This document shows positions 50,819 through 58,800 of a stretch of 64,000 bases of DNA, in pieces. The stretch covers positions 1 to 64,000 of the forward strand of contig CANTFL010001432.1 in the NCBI GenBank assembly GCA_947650285.1, given 5' to 3'. Under the pieces are notes generated by a model. It had not been told where the DNA came from and searched no databases. It was given only the letters and a program-made list of their open reading frames with translations. Each line of letters begins with the position of its first letter. Within the stretch, counting starts at the first letter, position 1. Position numbers and translations under genes: made by a program. The DNA comes from Hyaloperonospora brassicae (taxonomy: Eukaryota > Oomycota > Peronosporomycetes > Peronosporales > Peronosporaceae).

Positions 50819-51210
50819 TGTAACGGGGCAGCCCGTTACATAAAATTGTCACTTAAAGGAAATTGACAATAAAGAATATAACGATGGATATTCTTTAAAC
50901 AATATCACCAAAGTGGTGATATTGAAGGGTCGACCAAAGGGTTCTGTTCATTGGTTGATATCTTGATGATATCAACCCACCAATCGCCGCAAGACGCGCG
51001 GAATGAGTGGTGACGAGACGTCACCATACACTCAGTTATATTAGCATAATTAAGTTAAGTCAAACAGAGAGACAGTGGATTTAAGACTTAATTATATTAA
51101 TATAGCATTTCTACTTTTACCCTACCTACGCTTCCTCGCTTGCCACGTGTACGTCCGTCGGGGCACCCTAATCCCTTGCGTTAAGTTACGCAAGGGTGTG
51201 CCCCGTTACA
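50819..51210 (+). repeat. E3 5' LTR (type A)
   Basis: It starts TGTAACGGGGC and ends CCCCGTTACA; closely similar to 58410-58800. A chain of hairpins runs along it, ending with nested CCCTTGCGT/ACGCAAGGG-type arms inside GGGGCAC/GTGCCCC-type arms. Confidence 0.94.
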
Positions 51211-51212
51211 CC

Positions 51213-51221
51213 TGGTAGCAC
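51213..51221 (+). other. E3 primer-binding site
   Basis: TGGTAGCAC two bases after the LTR end, as in E1 and E2. Confidence 0.78.
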
Positions 51222-51254
51222 TTTGTAGTCCTTCCAAGGACCACATCATCCAAC

Positions 51255-52408
51255 ATGAACATGTTGGATGAAGAAGACACCTTTCACGCCACGCGTGAAG
51301 GGTTTACCCATTTGAGTGACATCGAATGGGGTGCGGTAGAACGAATGAGTTCTACCGTAGGCGAACTCGTCGTCAGCACCATGTTGGAGTCTCTAGACAG
51401 AGACCAACAACATGCTGCTATCGCCAAGTTCATTCAGAATGAACTTGCTCTCGAGAGGGAGAAAGTAGCCTTGCTTCACCAGCAAGGCTCTCAACAGGCC
51501 GAGCAGTTGAGAGAACTCGGTGCTCAATAGACGGAGCTGTTGAGACAGCAGCAATTCCATGCTGCTGTGGGCGGGACGACACGCACGTGTCGTCCCGAAA
51601 TCTTGACGATTGATATATTCAAGTACAGTGGAGTCCCGGAGGACTCCCTGTTACTATGGTTTGTCGAACTCGACAGAGCCCTAAGGGCTCGTCGCGTCGA
51701 AGATGAGCAAATGAGACTCACATTTGCTCATACCCACAGGTAGGGCGGGCCAAAACTTGGTCCCTGGCACTCGAGAGTAGCGACCCAAACGTGTTTAGGT
51801 CGCTAGATGACTTTAAGTCCCGGCTCAGACGAACGGTTGAGCCGCCACGGGCTGAGTTCAGGGCTCGTTCAGAGCTCCTGAAACTCAAGCAGGGTAAGCG
51901 TGATGTGCACGCTTACGCACAACATATACGACTACTTGCGAGTAGTATAACTGCTAACCCAATCCATGAACACACGTTGATTACGGTGTTCATGCAAGGG
52001 CTCGCAGAAGGGCCCGTCAGGAGCCATCTGTTCCGCCTTGAGCTGAATACGCTTGAAGAAGCGATATCAGCCGCGGAACAGGAATACTTTAGCATGAGAC
52101 AGGCTCATGCTAGCTCAAACTCTTACCGTCCACCGAGACGACAAGAGATCGGAGGTCCAGAACCAATGGACCTCTGCTATGTTGAGAGCGAGAGACCCCG
52201 ATCTTCAAACAACAAGCGATTGCAGAGGTGCAATCGCTGCCAGAAGTTAGGGCACTACGCATACGAGTGTAGTGCTCCACGCCCAGTACCAAACAGTACT
52301 GAGCGAAATGGACGACCTTTTGCCAGAAAGGGCAATGGGCGTGGGTCCAGCGCTGTTGCGAAGCCGCAACAGCGAGACGGAACATCAAAAAATGGTCGGG
52401 GTCAGTAG
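51255..52408 (+). pseudogene. gag: E3 gag, one stop and one frameshift
   Basis: It starts with ATG at 51255 (MNMLDEEDTFHATREGF), inside a hairpin with 11-bp arms. A TAG at 51528-51530 interrupts after 91 codons; the same frame goes on to 51743, then a shift to 51791-52408 is needed. The capsid region includes WFVELDRALRARRVEDEQMR and LLKLKQGKRDVHAYAQHIRL, then LEEAISAAEQEYFSMRQAHA. A zinc knuckle of CCHC type follows: CNRCQKLGHYAYEC (C-X2-C-X4-H-X4-C). The C-terminus is Arg/Gly-rich. It would form particles and bind element RNA. It ends at TAG 52406-52408. Confidence 0.88.
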
Positions 52409-52458
52409 GGGCGGAGCGCCCTACTGATCCAGCAACCTCAAGATAATTTGCAAATCTC

Positions 52459-56789: not shown

Positions 56790-57401
56790 TACCTCGGTAT
56801 TCAACCGAGATATCTCCCCGCGAGCTGTCGCCAACTCGCCGAAAAGGGAGCGGACATTCCACTCGGCCTGAATCTTCCCTGTGGCGTAATCGGCGCGGTC
56901 TCTCGCCCGATCAGCCTCGCGATCCTTGCGGTTCTTCCGCACGGTATCGGTCAAAGTGTAGCGCCGGTCGCGCTCGTGCTTCAAGTCATCGCGCAATTCA
57001 TCGATTGCGCGATCCATCTCGTAAGGGTCGAGATGGTGAGCCGAATAATCTGGAGGAGGTCTTTCCTCCTCCACCACATCCTTTGGTGGATGCTCACGGT
57101 GATCAACGCTTTCTAGTGGAGCGTATCTTGAATCACCGTGACGATTCAGGATCAAGGACGAGCTACCTCGTCCAGTGGCGGGGGCATCCACCCTCTTGGA
57201 ACAGCTGGGAGCCCCGCTCTCAGCTGTTGATGGATGTTGAAGGTCTCGTCCGCCAGTATGACGAGACCCATCCGATGAGTCCTGTGGCCCATCGGTAAAC
57301 ACGCGCCCTAGGCGCTTGTAGACGGATTGCAAGTTTGCAATCGCGTCACGCATCTCAGCCGAGATGTGTGCCCTTCCCCAGGGCAAATTTGGGGAGTACA
57401 C
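56559..57401 (-). CDS. E3 antisense ORF B, coiled-coil frame
   Basis: A 280-codon minus-strand frame that continues where ORF A ends, in a different frame, so the two may be one protein broken by a frameshift. Its start (YSPNLPWGRAHISAEMRDAI, NLQSVYKRLG) is matched in E2 by YLPNPPYWEARVLFEMRRGI, ERLQFLYERG. The C-terminal half is a strong coiled coil (AIDELRDDLKHERDRRYTLT, ELATARGEISRLNTEVSYLR). It overlaps the plus-strand chromodomain and linker, so part of its openness could come from overlap with pol. It is uncertain which strand is coding between 56790 and 57090. Confidence 0.45.
   Translation of the reverse strand: MYSPNLPWGRAHISAEMRDAIANLQSVYKRLGRVFTDGPQDSSDGSRHTGGRDLQHPSTAESGAPSCSKRVDAPATGRGSSSLILNRHGDSRYAPLESVDHREHPPKDVVEEERPPPDYSAHHLDPYEMDRAIDELRDDLKHERDRRYTLTDTVRKNRKDREADRARDRADYATGKIQAEWNVRSLFGELATARGEISRLNTEVSYLRDQTDRLERESKNLMDVLERGAIFIGRRRLVLTVRPEPFHVKRRVRAHLTWQFDCVCIVLAMQHSKWPNVLRQ
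56786..57298 (+). CDS. E3 linker and chromodomain, end of pol
   Basis: A 170-codon frame, again -1 with respect to the previous one. The first 90 codons are Arg/Ser/Pro-rich with low complexity; this part overlaps the antisense coiled-coil frame. The chromodomain lies at about residues 106-160: QRFLVERILNHRDDSGSR, YLVQWRGHPPSWNSWEP. The aromatic cage is mostly readable (F, W, W). It ends at TAA 57296-57298. Chromodomains direct insertion to particular histone marks. Confidence 0.85.
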   Translation: MIPRYSTEISPRELSPTRRKGSGHSTRPESSLWRNRRGLSPDQPRDPCGSSARYRSKCSAGRARASSHRAIHRLRDPSRKGRDGEPNNLEEVFPPPPHPLVDAHGDQRFLVERILNHRDDSGSRTSYLVQWRGHPPSWNSWEPRSQLLMDVEGLVRQYDETHPMSPVAHR

Positions 57402-58276
57402 ATCCCTATGTGCACGCTGCGAGTTGTCAACACAACTCGCACAAGGGTCTCTTCATGTGAGGCAAGGAATGCCTGCCTCACTCGATAAAAACAATGCAAC
57501 CGGTACCTAGCACCGGTTGGCGTTCGCCGTTCGAACCTGAGGCGTGTTGCCTCAAGTTTCTTGAGCCACCCTTCTCGTCCAAAATTCTTGACGTTTTGGA
57601 CGAACGCGTTCCACGCAGTCAAAAGCGATGTTTTGTCGCGCTTTTGGTTGATGTTGTACCATCGATGTCTAAGAAAGACATCGAGATAAAAGTCTTCCTC
57701 AGCGCGAAAGTTCTTCGCGCTGGAACTCAAGCCATGAAGCTCAGTTGCATCGAATAAGGGTATTCGATGGTGTTGGCCTGTCTCGTGAGACAGGCTATTG
57801 ATGAGCTGTTCGGGTAAACGCCACGGCTTCAACTCATCAAGCTTCACAGTGGTACCCTTGTCGGTACCACGGCTCCCAGATTGACGACGGCTCGCGCCAT
57901 CGTCATCACGCTCGTGCGAAGACGCACGAGCCGGCGGTGGTGAAGAATAGAACTCACCACCCTGATCATCGTCATCACTGCCGAACAGACTGTGATGCGA
58001 ATCACGAGTCCGTTCGTTCGGCAGTGGTCTTGGCGAATACTGAGGCGTCGCCGGTGAGCGAGACGCCTCTGGAGCATCGCCCGAGTCAGACACGTCTGAC
58101 TCGCCAGAGTAGATGACCTCTACATCAGGGCCATCGTGTGTACGCGGCGTGATACCGCGTGCACCTGCAGCACCTGTTGCTGCAGGCGAAGAAGGGGCGG
58201 CGGACGACGAATCGTCTGCCGCAGAGGCTTGCACAGCACCAGGCTGTGTGGGTCTTGAGTAACCTCGCATAGACAT
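57308..58276 (-). CDS. E3 antisense ORF A, unknown protein
   Basis: An open frame of 322 codons on the minus strand, starting at ATG 58276-58274, tail to tail with the chromodomain gene. The N-terminal 130 residues are Ala/Ser/Pro-rich and acidic (DVEVIYSGESDVSD, SLFGSDDDDQGGEF), so probably disordered. The middle is helix-rich: DELKPWRLPEQLINSL, EEDFYLDVFLRHRWYNINQK, WLKKLEATRLRFERRTPTGA, RYRLHCFYRVRQAFL. No signal peptide, membrane segment or known domain is evident. The last 30 codons overlap ORF B in another frame. It is retained in E2 at residue level. I cannot assign a function. Confidence 0.6.
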   Translation of the reverse strand: MSMRGYSRPTQPGAVQASAADDSSSAAPSSPAATGAAGARGITPRTHDGPDVEVIYSGESDVSDSGDAPEASRSPATPQYSPRPLPNERTRDSHHSLFGSDDDDQGGEFYSSPPPARASSHERDDDGASRRQSGSRGTDKGTTVKLDELKPWRLPEQLINSLSHETGQHHRIPLFDATELHGLSSSAKNFRAEEDFYLDVFLRHRWYNINQKRDKTSLLTAWNAFVQNVKNFGREGWLKKLEATRLRFERRTPTGARYRLHCFYRVRQAFLASHEETLVRVVLTTRSVHIGMCTPQICPGEGHTSRLRCVTRLQTCNPSTSA

Positions 58277-58393
58277 GTTGACTAAGCGAGGTCAAGCGGA
58301 AAGTGAATGGAACGGACCCAACAAGTGCTCCCTGTCCCAATAATGGCCAACGGGTGGCCTCCATGTTTTCGATAGTCACACGTTGACTATCAG

Positions 58394-58409
58394 TTAAGGA
58401 GGGGGGTGA
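58394..58409 (+). other. E3 polypurine tract
   Basis: TTAAGGAGGGGGGTGA directly before the 3' LTR start. Confidence 0.75.
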
Positions 58410-58800
58410 TGTAACGGGGCAGCCCGTTACATGAAATTGTCACTTTAAGGAAAGTGACAACAAAGAATATAAAGATGGATATTCTTTACACAATATCACC
58501 AAAGTGGTGATATTGAAGGGTCGACCAAATAGTCTGTTCATTGGTTGACATCGCGATGATATCAACCCACCAATCGCCGCAAGACGCGCGCAATGAGTGG
58601 TGACGAGACGTCACCATACATGCAGTTATATTAGTATAGATAAACTAAGTCAAACAGAGAGACAGTAGTTTGAAGACTTAATTATATTAGTATAACAGTT
58701 CTACTTTTACCCTACCTACGCTTCCTCGCTTGCCACGTGTACGTCCGTCGGGGCACCCAAATCCCTTGCGTTAAGTTACGCAAGGGTGTGCCCCGTTACA
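58410..58800 (+). repeat. E3 3' LTR (type A)
   Basis: It starts TGTAACGGGGC and ends CCCCGTTACA. Its first 110 bp are four consecutive hairpins: TGTAACGGG/CCCGTTACA (58410-58431), TTGTCACTTT/AAAGTGACAA (58437-58460), AAAGAATAT/ATATTCTTT (58462-58487) and CAATATCACC/GGTGATATTG (58491-58515). Confidence 0.94.

Follow-up and report, generated by a model that had tools for sequence, protein, structure and literature searches.

The stretch of DNA analysed here, referred to as the window, comprises 64,000 nucleotides of the oomycete Hyaloperonospora brassicae (contig CANTFL010001432.1, positions 1 to 64,000) and is part of an assembly of 100.6 Mb in 898 contigs. It carries three retrotransposons with long terminal repeats (LTRs), named E1, E2 and E3 and all lying on the plus strand, which are covered with short perfect hairpins; E3 (50819-58800), the element on which most of this work is centred, contains 116 of them. 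Unless another definition is given, a hairpin is a perfect, non-overlapping stem with an arm of at least 7 bp and a loop of at most 12 nt, some counts being based on loops of 0-11 nt.

E3 bears Pfam domains in Ty3 order, from gag to chromodomain, together with a pair of LTRs, and on the basis of this arrangement it is classed as a chromodomain-bearing Ty3/gypsy LTR retrotransposon. The 5' LTR (50819-51210) opens with the terminal hairpin TGTAACGGGGCAGCCCGTTACA, contains 6 hairpins and matches the 3' LTR (58410-58800, with 5 hairpins inside) at 93%. It is followed by the leader and gag (51211-52408, reading frame at 51791-52408), recognized by the Pfam model Retrotrans_gag, with a zinc knuckle that scores under the curated cut-off of Pfam; this part holds 18 hairpins, including those at 51246-51271 and 51572-51597, each with a stem of 12 bp and a loop of 2. 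Downstream lie the protease frame (52459-53196, RVP_2, 12 hairpins), the frame for reverse transcriptase (RT) and RNase H (53558-54961, RVT_1 and RT_RNaseH, 21 hairpins) and the integrase (54965-56789; Integrase_H2C2, rve and SH3_Tf2-1), whose reading frame is broken in this copy and is represented by pieces at 54965-55726, 55567-56319 and 56067-56789. The chromodomain frame (56786-57298, Chromo) holds 5 hairpins and is the weakest part of the element, and the 3' region (57300-58408) holds 17 hairpins and no listed sense-strand open reading frame (ORF) of at least 150 aa. A hairpin also marks the junction of gag and protease (52402-52427); judged by eye and without alignment, it resembles hairpins at the gag/pol junctions of two elements of families B and C, described below (L037, 339-366; L042, 748-775), and a junction or frameshift role is possible.

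Between 52001 and 58000 there are 28, 30 and 28 stems per 2 kb, compared with 1.2-1.4 in dinucleotide shuffles (five per bin), and the flanking bins contain 1 and 1 stems at 46001-50000 and 0 and 0 at 60001-64000. Control DNA within the window (36.7 kb: 8001-36000, 46101-50800 and 60001-64000) has no excess, with 34 stems against 32 expected (arm of at least 7, loop 0-11). The reading frames of E3 were compared with codon shuffles, in which synonymous codons are reordered so that both the protein and the codon usage are preserved (200 per frame). The RT-RNase H frame has 21 stems vs 1.24 in the shuffles (maximum 5), the protease frame 12 vs 1.10 (maximum 4), the gag frame 8 vs 0.78 (maximum 3) and the three overlapping integrase frames 11 vs 0.9 (maximum 3), 10 vs 0.5 (maximum 3) and 10 vs 1.0 (maximum 4); the chromodomain frame, with 5 vs 1.28 (maximum 4), is the only one near its codon shuffles. 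The non-coding parts of E3 are as hairpin-dense as its genes, given that the 5' LTR, the 3' non-coding region and the 3' LTR have 15.3, 15.3 and 12.8 stems per kb, and the genes 9.7-17.2. Chance, base composition and codon usage are ruled out as the cause by the two kinds of shuffles and by the control DNA. These results bear out a preliminary description of this DNA, made from the sequence alone, in which E3 was said to be tiled with such repeats: all 18 of the hairpins that it cited in E3 are present where cited, some of them longer than given; the shuffles and the flanking DNA that it proposed as comparisons both set E3 apart (21 vs 1.24 in the RT-RNase H frame, 0-1 stems per 2 kb in the flanks, 34 vs 32 in the control); and its estimate that a 10-bp stem occurs by chance about once per 100 kb agrees with the 0.3 found in shuffles per 36.7 kb, where 1 is observed (loop 0-11).

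The same description held that E2 is also tiled, which is the case at a lower density than in E3. E2 (37058-44784, right end provisional) is a more diverged member of family A, which consists of E3, E2 and their close copies; its 5' LTR (37058-37447) matches the E3 LTR at 93%, and the element aligns with E3 at 85% up to approximately 43459. The region 37057-46000 holds 65 stems, against about 6 expected (arm of at least 7, loop 0-11), and the four bins at 36001-44000 hold 9-22 stems per 2 kb. The tiling of E1 (approximately 241-7887, with LTRs from 241 and 7361) had been overlooked. This element belongs to family C, its RT being 88% identical in nucleotides to that of locus L042, and its stems are shorter (about 5 bp, with loops of 3-6 nt): there are 30, 21, 24 and 25 per 2 kb, vs 3.6-6.0 expected (arm of at least 5, loop 3-6).

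Related loci were collected from the assembly (n=80, with individual tests using subsets), and three families turned out to be tiled: family A; family B, divided into B1 (L037) and B2 (L036); and family C (L042, L051 and E1). Four copies of family A (L002-L005) carry 57-62 stems in 3.6 kb, and the RT region (1.5 kb) holds 14-23 stems in each of 33 of 33 copies, a set obtained from 38 loci by removing L056, L058 and L059 (short matches) and L057 and L060 (family B). In family B, the frame of L037 has 44 stems vs 4.9 in codon shuffles (maximum 10, n=100) and that of L036 has 24 vs 3.7 (maximum 7); L037 has Pfam domains from protease to chromodomain in order, and in L036 the protease match is below the cut-off and no chromodomain is listed in its cut stretch. 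That family C lacks hairpins is true just for arms of at least 7 bp in pol, since arms of 5-6 bp are strongly in excess: stems with an arm of at least 5 number 65 in L042, vs 23.4 (SD 3.1) in codon shuffles, and 56 in L051, vs 23.1 (SD 4.2; 2.4 kb and 8 shuffles in both cases). Nothing comparable is found in 30 other RT loci (L006-L035, unclassified and, to judge from the length of the RT match, probably mostly non-LTR), which have just 0-3 stems of at least 8 bp each (the highest being L031 with 3 and L014 and L035 with 2). Among distant Ty3 loci, L046 (4 vs 4) and L048 (6 vs 3) are near expectation and L047 is slightly raised (9 vs 2.3; at 8 bp, 2 vs 1), and seven loci (L046, L048, L006, L008, L010, L015 and L029) have no excess of 5-8 bp stems over codon shuffles. 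Oomycetes are the source of the named proteins related to the RT, with Peronospora matthiolae providing the best match (85% across 93% of the query). In a tree built from 27 RT rows, A, B and C fall into separate groups, each with relatives in other oomycetes, and the tree does not fix how these groups branch. Two scans of viral contigs yielded no relatives in the DNA of other organisms. The survey of related elements across the genome that had been suggested at the outset thus finds families A, B and C tiled and the other RT loci not comparable, and within this genome the tiling characterizes a clade of oomycete Ty3/gypsy elements that carry a chromodomain.

Each family has its own peak of stem length, which lies at 5 bp in C, at 8 in B1 and at 8-10 in A (E3 and E2). 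In family C, stems with an arm of 5 and a loop of 3 number 36 and 37 in L042 and L051 (5.5 kb), against 3 expected, and those with a loop of 4 number 17 and 18, against 3-4. At loops of 0-2 the innermost pairs of a hairpin are unable to form, and loops of this size show little excess at arm 5 in family C (4-8 vs 3-4), which is what folding as a single strand requires. For loops of 3-6, L042 has 75, 20, 2 and 1 stems with arms of 5, 6, 7 and 8, which is close to the numbers expected if 5-bp units were extended by chance, and L037 peaks at arm 8 (19 vs 0.1), with 6 stems at arm 9 and 1 at arm 10. E3 peaks at arm 9 for loops of 3-6, at arm 8 for loops of 7-12 and at arms of 11-12 for loops of 0-2; its longest arm is 12, and the maximum among the family-A loci surveyed is at most 14. 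The span of the whole hairpin peaks at 23-24 nt in A, at 20-22 nt in B1 and, as derived from arms and loops, at about 13-16 nt in C.

Pairing within the stems is strictly Watson-Crick, G-U being tolerated no better than A-C. The mismatches within E3 stems comprise 16 G-T and 14 A-C, and when G-U or A-C is allowed the number of stems rises from 61 to 88 or 85 in E3, from 12 to 13 or 19 in L037 and from 9 to 10 or 16 in L036. In L042, stems with one mismatch number 82 for GT (58 expected), 74 for AC (50) and 86 for CT (50), and perfect ones 145 (22). Majority states in the columns of 64 stems, each present in at least 4 of 13 copies, include 3 G-T, 1 C-A and 2 T-T vs 534 standard pairs, a count that is biased by the search for perfect stems and in which 6 of the 64 stems failed at the majority level. 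Among the L037 stems of at least 8 bp, 35 are perfect and 10 have a single internal mismatch (by chance, about 3); a looser count, with mismatches at the ends included, gives 77 one-mismatch sites vs 44 perfect. A-C mismatches outnumber G-T in L037 (21 vs 5) and L036 (13 vs 6), a lean that is not seen in A or C and that could reflect either folding of the minus strand or a mutation bias.

In coding windows of 300 nt (four per locus), folding energies lie below those of codon shuffles by 6.2-8.5 SD (L002), 3.8-5.6 SD (L037) and 2.6-4.6 SD (L051); the averages for five other RT frames range from -1.05 to +0.47 (198-nt windows), and the distant Ty3 locus L048, which has no hairpin excess, still has two low-energy windows (-3.7 and -3.3). 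The antisense strand folds as well as the sense strand. Long-range stems at loops of 61-120 nt are not in excess in E3, and at loops of 21-30 nt there is some excess (15 vs 2.7, arm of at least 7). An Rfam search of 36000-59500 gave 0 matches at the gathering score. The G+C content of E3 arms is 0.532, vs 0.512 for the element. Tuning of stability was considered because stem energies seemed narrow and alike in A and B, and was discarded as an artefact, given that chance stems from shuffles are likewise narrow (2.89 vs 3.59). The preliminary description had named a structured genome RNA as a possible cause, and of this proposal one part stands, namely that folding energy is far below that of codon shuffles, and the other does not, in that the tolerance of G-U is absent; a structured intermediate is therefore supported and ordinary RNA structure is not.

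Variation among copies bears on whether the hairpins are maintained. Alleles that several copies share were assigned to an older, replicating phase, and singletons, for the most part, to the time after insertion, an assignment that we infer. At third codon positions of 13 copies (3.6 kb), alleles present in at least 2 copies occur at 16 of 278 sites in stems, 81 of 607 outside and 13 of 71 in loops, and singletons at 77 of 278, 184 of 607 and 36 of 71, respectively; with positions 1 and 2 pooled, shared alleles do not differ between stems (23/526) and the remainder (53/1228). In the 33 copies (1.5 kb, 17 hairpins), third-position alleles carried by at least 4 copies occupy a smaller share of sites in stems (5/103) than outside (55/372; p=0.007), those found in 2-3 copies are at 15/103 vs 81/372 (p=0.13), and singletons are equal (42/103 vs 146/372; p=0.82). 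In family A, shared variants are thus rarer at silent stem sites and private variants are not, and the hairpins seem to be kept during replication and not afterwards. Double-changed cells were dropped as evidence of compensation in this family: there are 20, of which 14 are paired (5 paired and 13 not in a slid control), but the dominance of C-to-T and G-to-A changes favours paired outcomes at C-G pairs, and independent mutation is estimated to give about as many double changes.

A second line of evidence comes from the comparison of L037 with L036, whose third positions agree at just 0.41. Nine hairpins nevertheless have a common centre (of 38 and 24; mean 0.07 and maximum 2 in a circular-shift null), and in these nine 37 of 46 stem third positions are identical, vs 0.38 in the flanks and 8 of 20 in the loops; the hairpins that are not shared have diverged as much as their surroundings, and four pairs have changed on both sides. 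A minority of B hairpins therefore persist across saturated silent divergence. For L037 and L044 the number with a common centre is 2 (of 24 and 49; null 0.12, maximum 3). Inspection by eye of the 3' non-coding parts of E2 and E3, which are diverged, shows two co-located hairpins that differ in paired changes, alongside others that only one of the elements has. The persistence of a minority and the presence of unique hairpins imply that single hairpins turn over and the tiling stays.

Template switching by the reverse transcriptase had also been put forward as a cause, and it finds little support. Substitution clusters fit a local inverted template in 10 of 72 cases, vs 11.9 at random. Hairpins present on one side only have a mean arm difference of 1.0 (n=13) and 1.5 (n=8) in the L037/L036 comparison, vs 1.4 and 1.6 in matched nulls, and of 1.4 vs 1.5 in the E3/E2 comparison (n=24), so that rewriting of one arm is not found in either set; closer B pairs (1-10 hairpins each, not independent) range from 0.0 to 2.0 vs 0.9-1.4, in both directions, and some hairpins in the E2/E3 3' region have, by eye, one arm conserved and the other changed. 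The residues encoded in stems are ordinary, with deviation from conserved residues in 4/57 of the codons that lie wholly in stems vs 27/215 of the others in E3, 0/25 vs 10/263 in L037, 0/17 vs 12/280 in L036 and 4/34 vs 33/226 in L051, none of these differences being significant. One hairpin of L054, TACCGATCC-loop-GGATCGGTA, displays an exact inversion of its 5-nt loop (TCATC to GATGA), the only case among 577 loop cells.

Taken together, these observations lead us to favour, with about even confidence, the view that selection, mainly via silent sites, maintains strict hairpins that fold in a single-stranded replication intermediate. Silent codon positions would be the main site of this selection, and of the single-stranded forms in the cycle minus-strand cDNA would fit best, because G-U is not accepted as a pair. 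Speculatively, a family-specific protein of the element (the Gag nucleocapsid or the reverse-transcription or integration machinery) might need hairpins scattered over the molecule as a code for condensation or self-recognition. A bolder version, which we regard as doubtful, is that of a second code over the whole element, with a family-specific stem ruler (about 5, 8 or 9 bp) and strict Watson-Crick pairing, written in silent sites without change of the protein and read by the replication machinery proper to each family for condensation or for telling families apart. Several points weigh against selection for hairpins. We know of no protein or process that reads such hairpins, and a function is something that we infer. 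Shared alleles at second positions are commoner in stems (14/262 vs 18/616), and none of the 21 RT hairpins of E3 is centred like those of any B or C locus, most hairpins not being kept in place. Family-specific length is a peak over a broader excess and no strict rule: at loops of 3-6, stems of 5 and 6 bp are also abundant in E3 (45 vs 17 and 18 vs 4), where part of the excess may consist of decayed longer stems, and in L037 (32 vs 13 and 11 vs 4), and 4-bp stems are also in excess in family C. In G+C content the arms of E3 barely exceed the element as a whole, so the selected trait is not stability alone, and action on the minus strand is hinted at just by the A-C lean of L037 and L036. Conversion filtered by purifying selection, moreover, would mimic several of the signs described; in the mitochondrial genes of Nematomorpha, strict pairing with few imperfect intermediates has been taken to indicate conversion from arm to arm (Mikhailov et al., 2019, PMC6649704).

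The alternative closest to this is molecular drive, in which arm-to-arm correction or template switching in folded cDNA perfects near-palindromes, with a patch length that depends on the reverse transcriptase of the family and without function, and selection only purges hairpins that harm the protein; a point-by-point correction with protein function as the filter is a possible variant. We consider drive unlikely, though a serious contender, and rate selection through silent sites somewhat above it. Drive would account for strictly Watson-Crick stems, in which G-U fares no better than A-C, for the few internally mismatched stems in the young family (35 perfect vs 10 in L037), for arms hardly enriched in G+C, for coding and non-coding parts that are equally dense, for a constraint visible in shared variants only, and for the one exact loop inversion, the E2/E3 hairpins with one arm changed and the scattered arm asymmetry in closer B pairs; hairpins are known to arise and to be repaired through template switching (PMC8794818), which has also been proposed for Nematomorpha (PMC6649704). 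It leaves unexplained the substitution clusters, which local inverted templates fit no better than chance, the even divergence of arms in the one-sided hairpins of L037/L036 and E3/E2, the ordinary residues in stem codons and a distribution of stem lengths with a second peak rather than a plain fall-off from short stems. Ordinary selection for secondary structure along the RNA, as in RNA viruses with genome-scale ordered structure, would explain folding energies far below codon shuffles (6.2-8.5 SD in L002, compared with -1.05 to +0.47 in five other RT frames) and is nonetheless improbable: RNA structure under selection should accept G-U, which is treated here as a mismatch (in L042, GT 82 vs 58 expected, perfect 145 vs 22), the antisense strand folds equally well, E3 lacks a long-range excess at loops of 61-120 in spite of some at 21-30, and L048, without hairpin excess, likewise has low windows. 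Still less probable is a link to small-RNA silencing, the third cause suggested in the preliminary description, in which hairpins of about 20-24 nt would hide the RNA or its derived small RNAs, or feed the silencing pathway. Small RNAs are about as long as the hairpins of A and B1, whose span peaks (23-24 and 20-22 nt) lie near that size, but the spans of family C peak near 13-16 nt and the gaps in family A average 35-46 nt and are randomly spaced. An artefact arising by chance, from base composition or codon usage, or in assembly, has nothing in its favour and next to no probability, with stems far above codon shuffles, 14-23 of them in every one of the 33 family-A copies and nothing comparable in the controls.

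Whichever process is responsible, dense short perfect hairpins whose stem length is a family trait amount to a strong constraint on silent sites that models of codon usage or protein cannot see, and the silent sites of such elements are unusable as neutral clocks. If the hairpins are selected, there must be a reader able to measure stems and to discriminate against G-U pairs; if drive is true, a reverse transcriptase writes palindromes with a size preference, and this would be relevant to the long-standing question of the origin of perfect stems.

As for known systems, no description of hairpin tiling in Ty3/gypsy elements was found in the literature searched, as far as the accessible parts of the sources go, in agreement with the preliminary description, which knew of none. 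The nearest case is that of the mitochondrial coding palindromes of Nematomorpha, whose genes contain many perfect and few imperfect inverted repeats in conserved coding sequence, with gains and losses from one species to another (Mikhailov et al., 2019, PMC6649704). The tiled elements likewise have perfect repeats in coding sequence and few imperfect ones; unlike those of Nematomorpha, which reach 284 bp and lie in mitochondrial DNA (PMC6649704), the stems measure about 5-12 bp, peak at a length particular to each family and belong to a nuclear retrotransposon, including its LTRs and non-coding parts. Hairpin mutations caused by template switching (PMC8794818, PMC3820800, PMC8604942) would explain perfect stems and loop inversions, but two of their signatures, inverted-template clusters and the rewriting of one arm, were not found, and one loop inversion was. 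The dispersed packaging signals of RNA viruses, many hairpins over the genome that are read by a structural protein (PMC6281560), resemble the many hairpins spread here and differ in that here G-U is excluded, the loops have, by eye, no sequence in common (L037 and L051) and no reading protein is known. Of the features of genome-scale ordered RNA structure, the low folding energy is found here and the tolerance of G-U is not. Yeast Ty3 has a structured RNA genome and short palindromes for dimerisation, and tiling with perfect hairpins is not reported in the available part of that source (PMC11381356), a comparison based on that description. Chronos, an oomycete Ty3/gypsy element with a chromodomain and a second, plant-like RNase H of aRNH type (PMC5348765), shares with E3 its host group, class and chromodomain; no RNase H beyond the RT_RNaseH models was detected with Pfam in the frames of E3, which do not cover every base, or in L037, L036 and L051.

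Some features are restricted to particular families or loci. Family-B stems (L037, L036 and other B loci) favour G, C, Y and R at positions 1, 3, 5 and 7 from the outer end, and the G+C content of L037 stems is 0.683 vs 0.555 for the element; family A shows neither the rise nor the motif clearly. The motif scores 2.84 in L037, vs 1.82 for chance stems (0 of 5000 samples), with positions picked from the same data as were scored, and 7 L036 arms unlike those of L037 show no excess (2.0 vs 1.75). Codon phase was rejected as its origin, phases and registers being mixed in L037. Coding palindromes of the Nematomorpha type pair unevenly with respect to codon phase and disfavour one register; in the elements studied here, the codon register (1,2)(3,3) accounts for 14/44 stems in L037, 10/24 in L036, 11/61 in L002 and 9/54 in L044 (codon shuffles 0.28 and 0.29 for the last two). 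Regular spacing does not hold as a general feature: the gaps between family-A hairpins (mean 35-46 nt) are random (CV 0.98-1.02), and in B1 the spacing of L037 is more even than random (p=0.0065) and that of the near-identical L039 not significantly so (p=0.13).

At 43459-45300, the E3-like left part of E2 is followed by no matching 3' LTR, and a different LTR-like end (TGTAACGGGGTGAGCCCGTTACA) begins at 44785, so that E2, as far as its sequence can tell, looks mosaic. A small palindrome of the type TGTAACGGGG...TTACA stands at six LTR or LTR-like starts (50819, 58409, 37058, 44785, 241 and 7361), that at 37058 being one base off, and the LTR end is thus itself a hairpin; the 3' end of the E3 LTR is CCCCGTTACA. 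Finally, the 3' region of E3 contains an antisense ORF (57308-58276, minus strand, 322 aa, without a Pfam domain) that has 30 relatives in the database (E of at most 0.001), including predicted proteins from two Hyaloperonospora species (H. brassicae, 78%; H. arabidopsidis, 46%) and from Peronospora matthiolae (34-37%), and that may be a gene or merely translated element.

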